Assembly: GCF_008629675.1 (NCBI RefSeq)
Contig: NZ_VWOX01000003.1
Location: forward strand, 124,001-188,000
Length of the DNA: 64,000 bases
Source: Roseiconus nitratireducens
GTDB taxonomy: Bacteria; Planctomycetota; Planctomycetia; Pirellulales; Pirellulaceae
Direction: 5' to 3'
The notes under the pieces are model-generated. The model did no database searches and was not told where the DNA came from. It saw only the letters and a program-made list of their open reading frames with translations. Positions 41,814 to 59,022 of this stretch are shown in pieces (the stretch's first letter is position 1; each line of letters starts with the position of its first letter). Made by a program: the position numbers and the translations under genes.

Positions 41814-43763
<1,950 letters not shown>

Positions 43764-44383
43764 AGCAATGCGTCTCCGTTGATTTCGTAACTGGTCGGAT
43801 GAGGTCGCCTTCGGCTCGATCCGCGATCCGGCCTGACGACGTGTGAGTTGATAAAGTGGATTCGGGTTGAACGACGTCTCGGGTGTCGCGTGACGGTTCC
43901 GATTTCGGAAGCCAACTGCGATCACGACAACGTCGCTGGTGTCGGACCGAGCGTCGGACCTGAGCGAAAACTCTGCCTGTCGCTCGCGTGTCCGCCGCCT
44001 GTCGTTTTCGCCCACTCGGACGACGTTTGGGGTTTTTCGCAAAGGCCGTGCCAGAGCCGAAATCGCCGCGAGATTTTTCTCGCTGCCACGACAAATCCGT
44101 CGCAAACCGTTGAGATGAAGGCCTTTTCAGAAACCACGCAGGCGAAAATCTCCTTTTTGGCAGTCCGCCCGTTTCGCGGTTTTGACGCGGGAAATGGCCG
44201 ATGCCAAATTGACAGTTGCCAGGTTCCGTCGACCGCCGCCGGCTCGCGGAAAGAATCTTGGAAGATTGATTGTCAGAAATGGAGTTCGGCTGGGTCTTCT
44301 CCACAGCAAGCCGGTGACGTTGCCAGGACGTCTCGGTGACTCATCGGATCCTCCAAAACGCACCACCTCCTCCCGCGTCTGCC
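43764..44383. other. Divergent region between dnaK and the ECF sigma gene
   Basis: 620 bases. It must contain the dnaK promoter (minus) and probably the promoter of the ECF sigma-kinase-repeat protein trio (plus). I looked for the CIRCE inverted repeat (ttagcactc-n9-gagtgctaa) and did not find it. No gene is supported. A TTGACA is present near 44211 on the plus strand but has no matching -10. Confidence 0.4.
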
Positions 44384-45070
44384 ATGAACCGCTGGCCTGA
44401 AACACAGACGACGCTGCTGCAACGCATGTCCGATCCTCGCGACGACGCGGCCTGGCTGCGATTCGACGAGCTTTATCGGCCGGTGATCTACCGCTACGCC
44501 CGTGCACGCGGGCTGCAACACAGTGATGCCGAATCGTTGGTAGCGGAGGTCATGTCGCGCGTGTTTCGGGCCGCCCGGCGCTGGGCCGCCGCGTCCTCAG
44601 GCCCCAACGACGGCCACCGCACCAGAACCAGGGCCGATGCAAACCGTCCGGACGAACGCCCCCAACACTTTCGTGCCTGGTTGTACCGCGTCGCCGAAAA
44701 CTCGCTGCTGAATCTGGTCACCCGCCAACTGGCCCGCCGCGGAACCGGAGGTACGAGCCACCAACTTTCCATGGCCGGCCGGCCGATGCCCGACGAACTG
44801 TCGCGAGAGATCTGGCAAACCCAACATCAACAACAACTGTTCATGCGCGCCGCCCGCGCCGTCCAGTCTCAGGTCGACTCGGAACACTGGGAAGTGTTCT
44901 GGAGAACTCACGTCGACGGAGACTCGATCCCTCAAACGGCGGAACGCTTTGCGCGCTCGACCGGATCGGTTTACGCGATCCGCAGCCGCATCCTCAAGCG
45001 ATTGCGTGATCAGGTCAACCGAATGAAGCGGCTGGACGACGCTTCAACCCCTGACGGAGAAACGGCATGA
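44384..45070 (+). CDS. ECF-type RNA polymerase sigma factor
   Basis: 228 residues from ATG 44384 (MNRWPETQTTLLQRMSDPRD), the usual start of planctomycete sigma factors; an in-frame ATG at 44336 would add 16 doubtful residues. Region 2 shows FDELYRPVIYRYARARGLQ and SDAESLVAEVMSRVFRAA; region 4 shows SIPQTAERFARSTGSVYAIR as the helix-turn-helix. A polar insert (SGPNDGHRTRTRADANRPDE) separates them. The stop overlaps the start of the Ser/Thr kinase by four bases (ATGA), a layout typical of ECF groups tied to kinases in planctomycetes. The target promoter is unknown. Confidence 0.9.
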   Translation: MNRWPETQTTLLQRMSDPRDDAAWLRFDELYRPVIYRYARARGLQHSDAESLVAEVMSRVFRAARRWAAASSGPNDGHRTRTRADANRPDERPQHFRAWLYRVAENSLLNLVTRQLARRGTGGTSHQLSMAGRPMPDELSREIWQTQHQQQLFMRAARAVQSQVDSEHWEVFWRTHVDGDSIPQTAERFARSTGSVYAIRSRILKRLRDQVNRMKRLDDASTPDGETA

Positions 45071-46692
45071 GTGAATCCGTTCAGCCGGAACGCCGCTGCC
45101 CGTCGGCGGCACAGTGGGAACATTGGTTCCATGCCGACGGTCAAAGCCATGACGACGAGAACGTGCTGCTGGACCACTTGGAATCCTGCGTGAATTGTCA
45201 ACGTCAGGTCGATCAATGGTCTGCGGACGATCCGTTTCACGCGCAGTCGCGTGAGATCCTTCGCAACACAGGGTTGTCCAGCCTGGACTGGGGCCAGCAC
45301 GCCGTCGACGGCGACGAGAACCTGGGATTGGCGGCAGCGCCCCATGAAGGCCTGATCTTACTGGTGCAATCCCTGTTGGCCCCCAGTGAAACCGAGCGAT
45401 CACTCGGACGGCTGGGACGGTTCGAAGTGATGGGAATCGTCGGCAGCGGAGGCATGGGCATCGTGCTCAAGGCCCGCAGCATCGATGTCGATCGTGTCGT
45501 GGCCATCAAGATCCCCCAGCCCCATTTCTGGCAATCCTCCGATGCTCTGTTGACACTTGAACGCGAAGCGCGGTCGGCGGCCGCCGTGGTGCATCCCAAC
45601 GTGATCGCGATCTACCACATCGACCGCTACCGCGATCTCCCGTACCTGGTGATGCCTTACCTGCCCGGCGATTCGCTGCAGCGCCGGATCCACGACGGCG
45701 GGGCGCTGGGACCGTCCGAAAGTCTTCGCATCCTCCGACAGATCGCAGCCGCCTTGGCCGCAGCCCATCGCTGCGGCGTCGTTCACCGTGACGTCAAACC
45801 CGCCAACGTCTTGTTGGGCGCAGGGACGGACCGCGTCGTGCTGACCGACTTCGGATTGGCCAAGGTCCAATCCGACGCCACCTGCACCGCGACGGGGACC
45901 TTTGCCGGGACGCCGATCTACCTCTCGCCCGAACAGGCCCGTGGTGTCGGCGCCGGACCGGCCGGCGACGTGTACAGCCTGGGAACCGTGTTGTGGACGA
46001 TGCTTTGTGGCCGTCCGCCGTTGGCCGGCCTGAACACCCACGCCATCGTCCGTCGCATCGCCGATTCCGATCTTCCGAATCTTCGTGACGAAGTCGAAGG
46101 GCTGCCCGACTGGCTGTACCGCTTGATCGATCTGCTGCACGCCCCGGTTCCGGCCGATCGCCCGTCGGCTTCCCAGATCGTCCAATGGGTCCAGATCTGT
46201 GAACAACACCTCAGTGACGGCCGCTCGGTTCGGCTGCCGCCGGCATTGGAATCTCCGCCCACCGGACGCCGCCGAAGATGGGCGATTGCCGGAGCTTTGA
46301 TTGCGGTGGTGTCGATGGTTTCGCTGTCCGTTTGGATGCCACCACGATCGCAGCCGCCCCCGGCCGAGATGCATCCGGAGAAACCCGCGGCGGAGCCCGC
46401 TCAGCGCAAACTCAACCCAACCGCCGACACACCGGACACCGCGGAATCGGCTTCGCAAACGACCGAATCAGAAATCGTGCTGCAGTCGCCGCAACCAACG
46501 TTGCCGAAGGCCGAAACGCCGGCAGCCGAATCGCCGGCAAACAAGGAAGACCAGTCTCGTCCACCTCTCAGCTTGGAGGCAATCGAATGGTTGGACCAAA
46601 CAAAAAATGACCTGCAAACCATGCAACGTGAAACACTGCCTCGCTGGGATGCAGCGATTGATTCCTTGGAAACGGAAACCGGCAGCGATTGA
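45067..46692 (+). CDS. Membrane Ser/Thr protein kinase with N-terminal ZAS-like motif
   Basis: 541 residues. Residues 37-44 read HLESCVNC, the HX3CX2C zinc motif of ZAS anti-sigma factors, just after the coupled sigma gene. The kinase domain (about 117-380) has the P-loop GSGGMG (126-131), Lys148 in VAIKIP, HRDVKPAN (Asp242), DFG (261-263) and SPEQARG, so it should be active. A transmembrane helix lies at about 405-424 (WAIAGALIAVVSMVSLSVWM), followed by a Pro/Glu/Ala-rich periplasmic tail of about 115 residues. The start overlaps the sigma stop (ATGA); the stop overlaps the next ATG (TGATG). It likely controls the adjacent sigma factor. Confidence 0.92.
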   Translation: MSESVQPERRCPSAAQWEHWFHADGQSHDDENVLLDHLESCVNCQRQVDQWSADDPFHAQSREILRNTGLSSLDWGQHAVDGDENLGLAAAPHEGLILLVQSLLAPSETERSLGRLGRFEVMGIVGSGGMGIVLKARSIDVDRVVAIKIPQPHFWQSSDALLTLEREARSAAAVVHPNVIAIYHIDRYRDLPYLVMPYLPGDSLQRRIHDGGALGPSESLRILRQIAAALAAAHRCGVVHRDVKPANVLLGAGTDRVVLTDFGLAKVQSDATCTATGTFAGTPIYLSPEQARGVGAGPAGDVYSLGTVLWTMLCGRPPLAGLNTHAIVRRIADSDLPNLRDEVEGLPDWLYRLIDLLHAPVPADRPSASQIVQWVQICEQHLSDGRSVRLPPALESPPTGRRRRWAIAGALIAVVSMVSLSVWMPPRSQPPPAEMHPEKPAAEPAQRKLNPTADTPDTAESASQTTESEIVLQSPQPTLPKAETPAAESPANKEDQSRPPLSLEAIEWLDQTKNDLQTMQRETLPRWDAAIDSLETETGSD

Positions 46693-48551
46693 TGTCCCTC
46701 GAAACCATCTCCGCTGCCATCCAAACCCTCGCCGACTCTTCTTCTCACGACTTCGACTCCGACCCAATGACGGCACCTCCCATGAACACGACGCGCGTCT
46801 CAATCACCTGCTGCCTGCTCTGGCTGTGCGGAGTCGTCCAACTTCCGATGGCAATCGCCGACCAGGAAGTTCTGTTCCTCAAACCGGATGGGTCGCCAGC
46901 CGGTGATGTCAAGGTTTATCAAACCCCCGTCCATCACCCGGGAGGCATGGGTGAAATGGGAATGGAAGACATGATGATGATGGACATGGAGGGCGGCTCT
47001 GGCATGGGAGCCGCCGGAATGGAAATGGGCGGAATGTCGGGGATGGGAGGGATGGGATCGATGATGATGGGAATGGGAGGCTACGACTCGGCCTCGATCG
47101 CGGGTCGCGTGCTCTTCAAGGGAGAACCCGTCGGTGATTTCAAGGCGTTGCCTTCACACAGCGGCGGCAAAGTGACATTCTCGTCGCCTCAAATCGCTGA
47201 ACCACAACGAGGCCCTCACCGCTACAACGGAGATGTCCTGGCGGTCAGCGATTCCGGATTGAGCTTTTTGCCGGCGGGAACTCCGCTCAAGCCGACCGTC
47301 AAGCTTCGGCGGGGAGGCCAGATCCGCGCCGCTACGCCGTCAGGCATCGATCCCGCCCGCTACCAACTGTTGATCTGCTGGCAGGACGGGTTCGCGTGGC
47401 CAACCGATCCGATGGTCACGGAATTCCCGAACGTCAAAATCGCGGGGAACGTCGATCTGTCCAACTGGCGGTTTCAACCACGCTTTCAGGTCTACCAGAC
47501 CTCACCGTTCGATCGCCCGATTGAACTTCCTCCCGGAGAGTCTCGGATCACGATCGTCCCCAAACCGTTGCCGGGCGAAGATGCCAAACCACTCAAAGGA
47601 CGCGAGTTGTTTGACCTCCTGACCGCGGGCGGCCCCAGTCAGATCGTGCTGGTTCGGGGCAACGAGAAGCAACCGATCGACGTTACATTTCCGCCCCTGC
47701 AAACGATCCAAATCGACCTGGAACAAGACCGCCGCGACCCGCTTCCCGACTGGGGAGATCAATCGAGTCGGGTCTACCGCCTGGGCAATCCGGATACCAA
47801 GCTGAATGTGAAACCACAGACCGATCCGTTTGGAAATGTTCCATCAGTCTCGATCAGTTCAACCTCCGAGTTGACTCTGTACTTGAACCAACTTCGCCAG
47901 TGGCGTTCTTCCTACTTCACCGGCCGCACACCGTCGGTCGTCAATGAAGATTCCGTTCAATTCGACGCCATTGCTCCGGGGACCTACTACCTGAACGAAG
48001 AAACGCCGTCGGAAACGGTGACCCTGCCGGTCGATTCTCCTTCCTATCAAAATGGCATTGTCCGATTTCAAATTGGAACTCGCCAACTTGGCGTCGAGCT
48101 GCCTCTTTTCCGAGTCGAACAGCCCCCCGAAGCCGAAGCGTCGACCGAGCATCGTCAAACCACCGAACATCTATCTAACAGCCCCAATCAGCCGAGCGCC
48201 GCGGACGATGCCACGACCCTGAAAACCGTGCGGCAACTCCTGGACGAAGTCGAGACCGCGATGCGACGGATGTCGCAGCACCGTCAGCGGTTGTTGCGAT
48301 TGCAAGAAACGTTGACGAAGCGTTCCGGCAACCAGTCACCGAACCCACGTCCCGCCAAGAGCCCACCTGCGACCGCTGATCCGTTCGGCGGCGCCCCTCC
48401 ATCGGACTCAGACGACCCTTTCAGCCCAGGTCCCGGCGCCGATCCCTTCGGGCAGGGTTCGGACAATCCGTTCGGCCCGACAACCGGTGATCCGTTCGGC
48501 GCTTCAGAAGATCCGTTCGGCGGGGCATCGGGGGATCCGTTCGGCGGATAG
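46692..48551 (+). CDS. Exported Met/Gly-rich protein with C-terminal DPFG repeats
   Basis: 619 residues from ATG 46692, which overlaps the kinase stop (TGATG); ATG 46782 is an alternative that would put the signal peptide (MNTTRVSITCCLLWLCGVVQ) at the very start. Bases 46941-47083 encode about 48 residues with some 18 Met in GMG/GMEM patterns. A long beta-rich middle region follows, with carboxypeptidase-regulatory or Ig-like character that I cannot assign. A short helical segment comes next, and finally seven DPFG/DPFS/NPFG repeats (48376-48548). I do not know the function. The coupling to the kinase suggests it is a target, a sensor, or a partner of that pathway. Confidence 0.85.
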   Translation: MSLETISAAIQTLADSSSHDFDSDPMTAPPMNTTRVSITCCLLWLCGVVQLPMAIADQEVLFLKPDGSPAGDVKVYQTPVHHPGGMGEMGMEDMMMMDMEGGSGMGAAGMEMGGMSGMGGMGSMMMGMGGYDSASIAGRVLFKGEPVGDFKALPSHSGGKVTFSSPQIAEPQRGPHRYNGDVLAVSDSGLSFLPAGTPLKPTVKLRRGGQIRAATPSGIDPARYQLLICWQDGFAWPTDPMVTEFPNVKIAGNVDLSNWRFQPRFQVYQTSPFDRPIELPPGESRITIVPKPLPGEDAKPLKGRELFDLLTAGGPSQIVLVRGNEKQPIDVTFPPLQTIQIDLEQDRRDPLPDWGDQSSRVYRLGNPDTKLNVKPQTDPFGNVPSVSISSTSELTLYLNQLRQWRSSYFTGRTPSVVNEDSVQFDAIAPGTYYLNEETPSETVTLPVDSPSYQNGIVRFQIGTRQLGVELPLFRVEQPPEAEASTEHRQTTEHLSNSPNQPSAADDATTLKTVRQLLDEVETAMRRMSQHRQRLLRLQETLTKRSGNQSPNPRPAKSPPATADPFGGAPPSDSDDPFSPGPGADPFGQGSDNPFGPTTGDPFGASEDPFGGASGDPFGG

Positions 48552-48599
48552 CAATTTCTGACCCGCGATCCAAGCGTCCAAAACCGATCATCGGCCGAA

Positions 48600-50051
48600 T
48601 CAAGGCTGCTTGTCGATGACGATGTTCTTGATGTCGTTGGGCTGGTCCGGGCCCGGCGTGCTGCGACCGCGTTGGACCTGCCGTTCCAACTCCTGGTGAA
48701 GCTGCTGGACCTTGTCGGGAAAACGCTCGGCCAGGTTCTGTTGTTCCCCCAGATCCTCGTCCAGATTGATCAGCTGCACCATCGGCTTGCCCTGCTTGCG
48801 ATACTCCGCCCAACTCTTCTTGCTCGGCCGCTTCCCCGTCCATCCGCCCGAGGCGGGGCACAAGGACAACTTCCACTCGCCGTCGCGGATGGCAAAGTAG
48901 CCGGAAACACTGTGATGGACGACGTGTTTTCGGCCATCGGTCTGCTGCCCGGTCAGCGACGGCAGGAAACTCACGCTGTCCTCGGCGGCGTCGTCTGGCA
49001 AATCGACGGCCAGGATGTCGGCGACCGTGCGGATCACATCCGTCAAACAGATCAAATCGTCACAACGTGTTCCCGGAGCAACGACACCGGGCCAGGAAAC
49101 CAGAAACGGCACACGATGACCTCCGTCCCAAATGTCTGCTTTGGAGCCGCGTAAGGGCCCGCTGGGATAGTGCCCCATTTGCTGCAACTGATTGATCTTC
49201 GACGTCGGCCCGGAGGTGCCGTTGTCGCTGCTGCAGATGATCAGCGTGTTATCAAGCTGTCCGGCATCCCGCAGCGCGGCGACAACCTGACCAAAGCTTT
49301 CATCGGTCTGCATGACAAAGTCGGCGTGGGCGTTCAAGCCACTCTTCCCTTGCCATTGCGACGTCGGCACCACCGGTGAATGGGGCGAACTCCAGGGAAC
49401 GTACAGAAAGAATGGCTGCTGAGAATCCTTCCGGGATTGAATGTACTCAACGGCCTGTTCGGTCAGACGCGGCAACATTTCGATGGGCTCGATTTGTTCG
49501 GTCACCTGGTCGTTGTCGATCCAGGTTCGAATCTGTCGCGCGTGATGAAAGCCGTGGAACTCGTCAAAGCCGCCTCGATCTAAGGGGCCATGCGTCACGC
49601 GACCCCCGACGTCCACCGCTTTGGCGATGTGCTCGCCATCAAACAACATTCCCAAGTGCCATTTGCCGATCACCGCGGTGTCGTACCCCTGTTCACTCAA
49701 CAGCTTGGCCAAGGTCAACCGGTCCTCGGCGATCAGCGATTCGCCTCCGGTCAGCACACCCGACTGCAATCGTGTCCGCCAGGCGTAGCGACCGGTCATC
49801 AGTCCGTACCGGGTCGGCGTGCAGACGGAAGAACCACTGTGCGCATCGGTGAAAACCATGCCGCTTTCGGCAATCGCATCCAAGTTGGGCGTGGGGATCT
49901 TGCCCCGCGTCGGATTCAGGCATTGCAATTCGCCAAAACCCATGTCGTCGGCCAGCATGATCACGACGTTGGGGCGTTCGGACGCCCCCGCGGGATGCCC
50001 CAAGAGGGCGAGAGCGGCAACGGCGGCGACAAGAAAGAACGAACGATTCAT
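48600..50051 (-). CDS. Exported arylsulfatase-family protein
   Basis: 483 residues with a signal peptide (MNRSFFLVAAVAALALLGHP). The FGly site lies in SSVCTPTRYGLMTGRYAW, with the cysteine to be converted at Cys77 and the consensus CxPxR plus TGR. Metal ligands are seen in NVVIMLADDMGFGEL and later in ICSSDNGTSGP. The enzyme probably removes sulfate from a marine polysaccharide; the exact glycan cannot be read from the sequence. SlyX lies upstream on the same strand with a 100-base gap. Confidence 0.95.
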   Translation of the reverse strand: MNRSFFLVAAVAALALLGHPAGASERPNVVIMLADDMGFGELQCLNPTRGKIPTPNLDAIAESGMVFTDAHSGSSVCTPTRYGLMTGRYAWRTRLQSGVLTGGESLIAEDRLTLAKLLSEQGYDTAVIGKWHLGMLFDGEHIAKAVDVGGRVTHGPLDRGGFDEFHGFHHARQIRTWIDNDQVTEQIEPIEMLPRLTEQAVEYIQSRKDSQQPFFLYVPWSSPHSPVVPTSQWQGKSGLNAHADFVMQTDESFGQVVAALRDAGQLDNTLIICSSDNGTSGPTSKINQLQQMGHYPSGPLRGSKADIWDGGHRVPFLVSWPGVVAPGTRCDDLICLTDVIRTVADILAVDLPDDAAEDSVSFLPSLTGQQTDGRKHVVHHSVSGYFAIRDGEWKLSLCPASGGWTGKRPSKKSWAEYRKQGKPMVQLINLDEDLGEQQNLAERFPDKVQQLHQELERQVQRGRSTPGPDQPNDIKNIVIDKQP

Positions 50052-58113: not shown

Positions 58114-59022
58114 TCAACCCCGGTAGCGTTCTCGCGGATCGGTCAGGCCGTCGGCCATGCGTCGCAGCGCCTCGGTTTCGATCTGCCGGACGCGTTCTCG
58201 GGTCAGCCCAAGTTCGGCACCGATCTCTTTGAGCGTCTTCGGCTCGCCGCCGTCGAGCCCGAATCGCAGTTTCAACACGGTCGCTTCGCGCTCTTCCAGA
58301 TCGTCCAACAAATCCATCGCATGGCGGAGGATGTCGTGGTCGAGCATCATTTCGTCGGGCGCTTTCAAACGCTCGTCCATCACCATCTCGCCCAGTGACC
58401 AACCGGATTCGGACTGATCGCTTTGCGGCGTGCTGTTGCTGATCCGGATGGCTTTGCGAATGATCGGCAGCTTCTTCTTCGGCAGCCCCAGGACCCGAGC
58501 GACCTCCTCATTGGTCGGCGTCCGTCCCAATTCCTCGCTCAGCCGGGCCGTTGCCCGACGCCATTTGCTGAGCAACTCGACCATGTAGGCCGGAATTCGG
58601 ATGGTCTTGGCACTGTTGATCAAGGCCCGTTTGATCGACTGCTTGATCCAGTAGCTGGCGTAGGTGCTGAACCGCGTGCCCACCGTTGGGTCAAACCCCT
58701 CGACGGCGCGCAGCAGCCCCAGATTGCCTTCTTCGATCAAATCCTGCAGGCTGAGTCCCTTGCCCGTGTAGCCGCGCGAGATGTTGACGACCAGCCGAAG
58801 GTTGGCCCGCACCATTCGGTCGCGGGCTTGGACATCGCCCTGTTCGATCCGAGCGGCGAGTTCCAACTCTTCCTGGGCGGTCAGCAAGGCCGTCTCGTTG
58901 ATTTCCCGCAGGTAGGTCTCCAATGGCGACTGTGCCGCATCGGTCCGTCGGGTCGCCGATCGGGGTTTGCGTGTCACGTCGACAAGATCCGGGTCGACGG
59001 AGGAGGGTGCGAATTCAGACAT
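58114..59022 (-). CDS. RpoD/SigA-type sigma factor (group 2)
   Basis: 302 residues. Regions: 1.2 (SPLETYLREINETALLTAQE), 2 (MVRANLRLVVNISRGYTGKG, then LQDLIEEGNLGLLRAVEGFD and RFSTYASYWIKQSIKRALIN), 3 (TARLSEELGRTPTNEEVARV), 4 (LEEREATVLKLRFGLDGGEP and GLTRERVRQIETEALRRM). No region 1.1 is present, so it is probably a non-essential primary-like factor rather than the housekeeping one. It stands alone on the minus strand. Confidence 0.94.
   Translation of the reverse strand: MSEFAPSSVDPDLVDVTRKPRSATRRTDAAQSPLETYLREINETALLTAQEELELAARIEQGDVQARDRMVRANLRLVVNISRGYTGKGLSLQDLIEEGNLGLLRAVEGFDPTVGTRFSTYASYWIKQSIKRALINSAKTIRIPAYMVELLSKWRRATARLSEELGRTPTNEEVARVLGLPKKKLPIIRKAIRISNSTPQSDQSESGWSLGEMVMDERLKAPDEMMLDHDILRHAMDLLDDLEEREATVLKLRFGLDGGEPKTLKEIGAELGLTRERVRQIETEALRRMADGLTDPRERYRG

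Follow-up and report, generated by a model that had tools for sequence, protein, structure and literature searches.

Genes for extracytoplasmic function (ECF) sigma factors that lie beside genes for Hanks-type Ser/Thr kinases are known from the kinase-linked groups ECF43, 59, 61, 62, 217 and 283 (PMC8999054; this and the other articles cited here are quoted from excerpts). In these groups the sigma factor is phospho-activated and an anti-sigma factor is usually not found nearby (PMC8999054), and the planctomycete pairs, which have representatives in ECF59, 61, 62 and 217 (PMC8999054), are treated by reviews as phosphorylation systems by analogy with EcfP (PMC8999054, PMC8103513). The EcfK-PknS pair of Xanthomonas citri follows the same principle, as a membrane-bound Hanks kinase controls an ECF sigma factor by phospho-activation, and the 81-residue N-terminus in front of the PknS kinase domain, predicted to form three to four helices, is given no anti-sigma role (PMC13147305). 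Zinc anti-sigma (ZAS) factors such as RsrA, ChrR and RsiW, the genes of which are located directly downstream of the ECF gene, carry CHCC or HHCC ligands, the hallmark being a fourth ligand 23-26 residues upstream of an HX3CX2C motif; in RsrA the ligands are Cys11, His37, Cys41 and Cys44 (PMC4960319). ECF sigma factor, zinc anti-sigma factor and Hanks kinase meet in one mycobacterial pathway, SigH-RshA-PknB, in which phosphorylation of RshA by PknB provides a precedent for the release of a sigma factor (PMC8999054, PMC13147305). Here we describe a three-gene locus of Roseiconus nitratireducens encoding an ECF sigma factor, a membrane kinase with a predicted N-terminal zinc anti-sigma domain, and an exported protein; it lies in a window, the whole stretch of 64,000 nucleotides that was analysed, which corresponds to positions 124,001 to 188,000 of contig NZ_VWOX01000003.1 (forward strand). 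That the three genes form one coupled unit had been proposed from the DNA sequence alone, a proposal referred to below as the original prediction, which also noted that ECF-kinase pairs occur in planctomycetes. The main features of the locus are as follows.

44384 to 45070, plus strand: ECF sigma gene, 228 amino acids, ATG at 44384, sigma2.2 motif DAES.
45067 to 46692, plus strand: gene of the membrane Ser/Thr kinase with the predicted N-terminal zinc anti-sigma domain, 541 amino acids.
45067 to 45405, plus strand: predicted N-terminal ZAS-type domain and linker, kinase residues 1-113, with ligands C11, H37, C41 and C44.
45421 to 46185, plus strand: Hanks-type kinase domain, residues 119-373, Pkinase E 5e-45.
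46282 to 46338, plus strand: transmembrane helix, residues 406-424, hydropathy 2.14.
46339 to 46689, plus strand: tail, extracytoplasmic by its presumed topology, with a short conserved end of the type YLDQLQxELDxLNQ in an alignment of 11 kinases.
46782 to 48551, plus strand: third gene from its likely true start, encoding a protein with a signal peptide; the start is chosen from orthologue starts and the hydropathy peak of the signal sequence.

The N-terminus of the window kinase contains the sequence HLESCVNC, an HX3CX2C motif, at residues 37-44, as had been noted in the original prediction, which overlooked the fourth ligand, C11. The four ligands, identically numbered in RsrA, are invariant in 11/11 aligned kinases, all of which keep the complete HX3CX2C motif, and the window kinase thereby combines the motif with an upstream Cys at the spacing seen in ZAS factors. 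Shuffling of the N-terminus yielded HX3CX2C in 80 of 20,000 shuffles, and the motif is unlikely to be fortuitous in view of this figure, its conservation in the 11 kinases and the genome-wide tie to ECF neighbours described below. A ligand 23-26 residues before the motif was present in 57 of 59 N-termini (Cys in 44, His in 13), 52 of which had been chosen for HX3CX2C; the count not so chosen is that of 64 motif-bearing kinases out of 65 beside related sigma genes. A profile of the 59 N-termini compared with PDB sequences matched, at E <1e-3, DdvA (1e-7), chain B of 3hug (3e-4), RsiW (4e-4) and ChrR (8e-4), relating this family of domains to known anti-sigma domains; a CHAT-domain PDB entry was also matched, in a stretch identical to that of DdvA, and RsrA scored E 0.41. 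The 3hug chain is listed as a conserved membrane protein, and we take it to be the anti-sigma factor RslA. In addition, with E values up to 1 accepted, zf-HC2 was detected in 43 of the 59 sequences, its best score being 1e-7. A low-confidence model of the window domain (predicted local distance difference test, pLDDT, 59) places helices at residues 14-22, 28-40, 42-54, 56-67 and 92-104, in the order expected for an anti-sigma fold, a three-helix bundle plus helix 4, but it had no significant fold match (see below). The CHCC signature, the profile matches, the zf-HC2 matches and the link to ECF genes are consistent with an N-terminus that is a zinc anti-sigma domain, and they favour the earlier suggestion of an anti-sigma role for the kinase itself.

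The remainder of the kinase agrees with its description in the original prediction as an intact kinase domain followed by a membrane helix, the VAIK lysine, HRD and DFG being invariant in 11/11 aligned kinases, as in a Hanks-type enzyme with intact catalytic residues. The helix is directly preceded by RRRR, for which reason the kinase domain should face the cytoplasm. Measured against the systems introduced above, the window kinase shares with RsrA, ChrR and RsiW the ligands, their spacing and the position of the gene directly downstream of the ECF gene, and differs from them in that the domain is joined to an intact kinase domain with a membrane helix behind it. Whereas SigH, RshA and PknB are three separate proteins, kinase and anti-sigma domain would here be parts of one polypeptide. 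The kinase-linked ECF groups show the same adjacency of ECF sigma gene and Hanks kinase; by their description, on which this comparison is based, they differ in the phospho-activation of the sigma factor and the usual lack of a nearby anti-sigma factor, whereas the window kinase carries a zinc domain of its own.

The sigma factor was assigned to the ECF family on the presence of Sigma70 regions 2 and 4, region 2 (Sigma70_r2) being found at E 2.6e-7, above its cut-off, and region 4, which falls short of the cut-off in the window protein, being seen at E up to 0.1 in 7 of the 9 sequences aligned; the TIGR02937 score of 37.1 is under the cut-off of 42.9. The DAED motif of this sigma factor bears on the possibility that the locus works by direct phospho-activation in the manner of EcfP/PknT or EcfK/PknS, the sigma factor remaining idle until phosphorylated and the zinc domain serving as a docking site only. 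Activation-type ECF-kinase pairs are indeed known (PMC8999054, PMC13147305), and the fourth position of the motif is Ser or Thr in 6 of the 8 sigma factors of the genus (DAES in the window, DAET in 5). The same position is however Ala in the other two (DAEA), the sigma factors of a second genus read AADE or GAEE, and Asp or Glu occupies the fourth place in 63 of 72 related sigma factors. The window sigma factor moreover retains the DAE acids where EcfP has STTA (PMC8999054), so that it does not show the EcfP/ECF43-type replacement of the DAED acids by uncharged residues with a phospho-acceptor, and because the acidic DAE core is kept in 8/8 orthologues of the genus, the sigma factor should not need phosphorylation for polymerase binding. 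These data argue against a sigma factor idle until phosphorylated at the fourth place and lowered our estimate of an EcfP-type phospho-switch as the main mechanism. Phosphorylation elsewhere on the sigma factor, as reported for EcfK, would still fit; direct phospho-activation leaves the full zinc anti-sigma signature unexplained, and we consider it improbable. Two minor observations concern related sequences: the window contains another ECF-type Sigma70_r2 match, at 58621-58815 on the minus strand (G000:C42:182621-182815), and a 3.2 kb contig labelled as a Polyangia metagenome-assembled genome (L110) encodes part of a sigma factor with 65% identity to the query, and is perhaps a misbinned planctomycete contig.

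The conservation of the locus was assessed in 241 genomes of the family, for which the best 5 candidates per genome (third-protein profile) or up to 12 (sigma profile) were scored. Full matches to the third-protein profile were obtained in 12 genomes, namely 9 of the 14 of the window's genus and 3 of a second genus, and four more genomes matched in low-complexity parts only. The sigma profile reached at least 324 bits in 11 genomes, the next score being 180 bits, and all 11 also carry the third gene, with the trio intact in each; the twelfth third gene (G008) is located with a kinase on a 3.5 kb contig that ends before the sigma gene. The trio is a unit, and the original prediction, which would have fallen had the third gene not been conserved beside the pair, is borne out on this point. 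A neighbourhood retained by chance or inheritance beside clpB-dnaK, without functional meaning, could account for the fact that the trio adjoins dnaK-clpB in all 8 genomes of the genus with enough contig. In the second genus, however, the intact trio has different surroundings, and G011, a member of the genus without the trio, has dnaK directly followed by the sulfatase gene that flanks the window trio (72% identical), a junction suggestive of joint gain or loss of the three genes; of the 5 trio-less genomes of the genus, the remaining four have different genes beside dnaK. Among the best candidates per genome, no sigma gene was found without the third gene and the reverse was found only at a contig end. 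A neighbourhood without meaning is on these grounds very improbable.

How tightly the three genes are coupled differs between the two junctions. The predicted 4-base overlap of sigma and kinase genes is confirmed, as the kinase ATG at 45067 lies inside the end of the sigma gene at 45070, and this ATGA is kept in the window and 8 related trios. The predicted 1-base overlap of kinase and third gene holds for the open reading frame, which runs from an ATG at 46692, within TGATG at the kinase stop, to 48551 (gene calls were mechanical). The conserved part of the third-protein orthologues begins with MNRTTLL, equivalent to MNTTRVS at ATG 46782, 89 bases past the kinase stop, and for this reason the overlap is doubtful and probably reflects a start codon called too early. 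Among relatives, the distance from kinase to third gene ranges from an overlap up to 313 bases. The coupled unit of the original prediction therefore stands as a trio kept together across genomes, its tight coupling of the third gene being a feature that relatives do not conserve.

The third protein had been described as exported and rich in Met and DPFG repeats, and the sequence agrees with this description, including a predicted signal peptide. Three segments were recorded.

46947 to 47096, plus strand: Met/Gly/Asp-rich segment with 18 Met in 50 residues.
48201 to 48326, plus strand: long helix that may form a coiled coil, at residues 504-545 with ATG 46692 as residue 1; from a low-confidence model, alignable in orthologues.
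48378 to 48548, plus strand: DPFG-repeat C-terminal tail with D/N-P-F copies.

Across 10 aligned third proteins, that of the window included, there are 14-21 Met per 50 residues and 5-8 D/N-P-F copies per protein; the Met values for two further orthologues of the second genus are 8 and 12. The tail is not specific to these proteins, as it is also present in exported-looking proteins of another family. As a separate observation, DPFG/NPFG tails end several other proteins in relatives, those of L051, L052, L048, L049, L050, L123 and L125, the likeness of which to the third protein is confined to the tail.

Upstream of the trio a candidate promoter was located.

44270 to 44296, plus strand: promoter-like element TTGTCAGA-N14-GGGTC, a 27-base layout ending 87 bases before the sigma ATG.

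The same layout occurs in 8/8 trios of the genus with this region on the contig, where it begins 77-114 bases ahead of the sigma start codon, and in each of these 8 genomes the exact element is present as a single copy, at the trio. Of 5 trio-less genomes, 4 lack it, G004 having 2 copies and G008 1, none of them at a trio, and GTCAGA-N15-GGGTY is found at the equivalent place upstream of the sigma gene in 3/3 trios of the second genus. The operon would on this evidence be autoregulated and may be its own main target. An Rfam scan of 43700-48700 gave no match above gathering scores.

The window trio belongs to a wider pattern of such modules, which the original prediction, right as to the reality of the trio, had overlooked. 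In the genome of R. nitratireducens 83 kinases were examined (from 89 domain matches merged), of which 11 have HX3CX2C before the kinase domain, and an ECF domain match lies within 2 kb of 10 of these 11 as compared to 10 of the 72 kinases without the motif (p = 7e-7); 6 of the 10 ECF-adjacent motif kinases have the same direction as the ECF gene. Among 69 distinct related sigma genes, a sample from the top of the similarity ranking and hence biased to relatives of the window sigma factor, 67 had room downstream and 65 an adjacent kinase, 64 of these kinases having the motif, and 36 of the pairs share the ATGA overlap. After the pattern was suspected, 60 extra loci were fetched, and from a total of 99 kinases 3 without the motif and 4 without sequence past the kinase were dropped to leave 92 pairs. 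A gene with a signal peptide follows 36 of 44 kinases of up to 620 residues versus 12 of 48 longer ones, a cut chosen after the pattern was seen, with other cuts showing the same trend. The difference persisted when the trio was excluded (26/34 short versus 12/48 long, p 5e-6), in the newly fetched loci alone (18/25 versus 8/27, p 0.005) and after single-linkage clustering at 60%, in which a signal peptide was present in 11/12 short versus 1/12 long among 24 clusters. The signal-peptide rule is home-made and is passed by 12 of the 41 window genes, and the short kinases include two fragments, 191 and 275 residues long.

Exported partners and outer parts of long kinases are in some cases related. 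The third proteins of L065, L092, L316 and L340 match the outer part of the long kinase of L322 (E 3e-12 to 3e-23), with weaker matches of L332 to L074 and L078 and of L064 to L317, which can be read as a single outer domain borne by its own protein in some modules and by the kinase in others. A domain scan of 10 exported partners returned TPR, alpha/beta-hydrolase, Secretin_N and Peptidase_MA_2 once each and no match for the other 6. Outside the trio, a helical segment of about 60 residues recurs in 22 of 34 short modules, the profile having been seeded from 12 of the 22, as compared to 3 of 48 long modules; it occurs in 0 of 10 trios. It has two weak matches in Pfam, confined to one member each, and its best solved structure scores E 0.096. 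A search of 60 genomes returned 67 matches to the segment in 36 genomes, that of the window not being among them. For 41 of these matches a listed sigma homologue lies within 4.5 kb, and among 10 inspected of the remaining 26, two adjoin a kinase and one a sigma gene. In another module, the exported partner encoded at L332:2510-3793 is likewise Met-rich ahead of the helical segment, with 11 Met in 50 residues, and is a possible bridge to the third protein of the trio.

The relation between separate and fused outer domains also bears on the role of the third protein, which might simply be an output of the system, i.e. an envelope or surface protein made on demand, neither sensor nor kinase partner. 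With the exact promoter found once per trio genome, at the operon alone, the operon may be the whole regulon, and this, together with the variable gap between kinase and third gene and the Met- and DPFG-rich composition, would suit an output. Long kinases mostly lack a separate exported gene, however, and some carry a fused homologue of one, which fits a partner better, and we regard the output role as rather unlikely.

We propose that the trio is a self-contained transmembrane switch in which the zinc kinase holds the sigma factor and the exported partner controls the kinase, a proposal that we hold to be evenly poised between right and wrong. At rest, the ECF sigma factor would, judging from homology, be held by the N-terminal zinc domain of the membrane kinase, and the third protein would act as the partner of the kinase outside the membrane and aid the sensing of a signal. 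On arrival of the signal the kinase would become active and phosphorylate the sigma factor and/or its own anti-sigma domain, thereby releasing the sigma factor, which could then transcribe its own operon from TTGTCAGA-N14-GGGTC and so supply more sigma factor, kinase and partner. The CHCC site might in addition release the sigma factor on oxidation, as RsrA does. Sequence comparison of a few cases shows other planctomycete modules of the same layout in which the exported partner differs or an outer domain is part of the kinase.

Several results weigh against this switch. As regards the anti-sigma domain, zf-HC2 was not found in the N-terminus of the window kinase itself, and among 11 close kinases it gave no more than weak matches, in 2; the weak domain model (pLDDT 59) gave no significant fold match, the two Foldseek rows having E 6 and 10. 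The third protein was modelled poorly (pLDDT 51), and a fold search with this model gave multi-domain pilins as best hits at a template modelling (TM) score of ~0.12, which is uninformative; BLAST linked it to no exported partner of other modules, a profile comparison with those partners gave no match, and none of the 10 trio third proteins matched the shared helical segment. Owing to the poor model, the sensing role of the third protein is proposed purely by positional analogy. Sites with up to one mismatch to the promoter-like element were not enriched in the 8 trio genomes (55, of which 8 are the operon itself, versus 53 for a reversed-pattern control), the corresponding figures in 5 trio-lacking genomes being 25 versus 14; as near-matches are not enriched, no wider regulon is visible, and a wider regulon based on this element was rejected. 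Finally, 4 of the 10 ECF-adjacent motif kinases of the own genome are divergent from the neighbouring ECF gene and not downstream of it.

C75:165284, C53:383751, C12:156011 and C19:93331: the four divergent motif kinases of the own genome (loci L222, L227, L232 and L234, respectively).

A broader reading, which we advance tentatively and with slightly more doubt than belief, is that planctomycetes use a distinct switch in which the receptor kinase is the anti-sigma factor and the exported sensor is swappable, being separate where the kinase is short and fused where it is long, with the helical domain of about 60 residues, which has no Pfam family, as the docking part in many modules; the window trio would be a divergent version with a Met-rich partner, and its operon may be its only target. 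The recurrence of related modules across the family suggests that this way of passing an external signal on to RNA polymerase is widespread. The logic predicted by a kinase-borne zinc anti-sigma domain, release from capture, is the opposite of that of EcfP. The signals that these kinases sense become directly approachable through the exported proteins paired with them, and with 11 motif kinases in one genome, ten of them ECF-adjacent, one worked example could explain many. No description of a kinase-fused zinc anti-sigma domain was found among the literature matches listed, nor in the excerpts of PMC8103513, PMC7406223, PMC8999054, PMC11032199, PMC8567305 and PMC13147305, the primary ECF classification, the 2012 planctomycete survey and the EcfP/PknT paper being outside this scope. 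An exported partner of such kinases was likewise not described among the matches listed, and a prior description is possible. ECF-kinase pairs as such are thus already known, and the kinase-borne zinc anti-sigma domain with its exported partner is apparently undescribed in the literature searched.

The adjacency to dnaK and clpB was also considered as a link to heat shock. This link was abandoned, because the trio has another location in the second genus and because dnaK is preceded by a sigma54-like site regardless of the trio. This site, TGGCAC-N5-TTGC at 44039-44053 on the minus strand, which we take to conform to the sigma54 consensus, is found upstream of dnaK in all 13 genomes inspected, 8 trio-bearing and 5 trio-less, and the dnaK gene of the window's genus may be sigma54-dependent.

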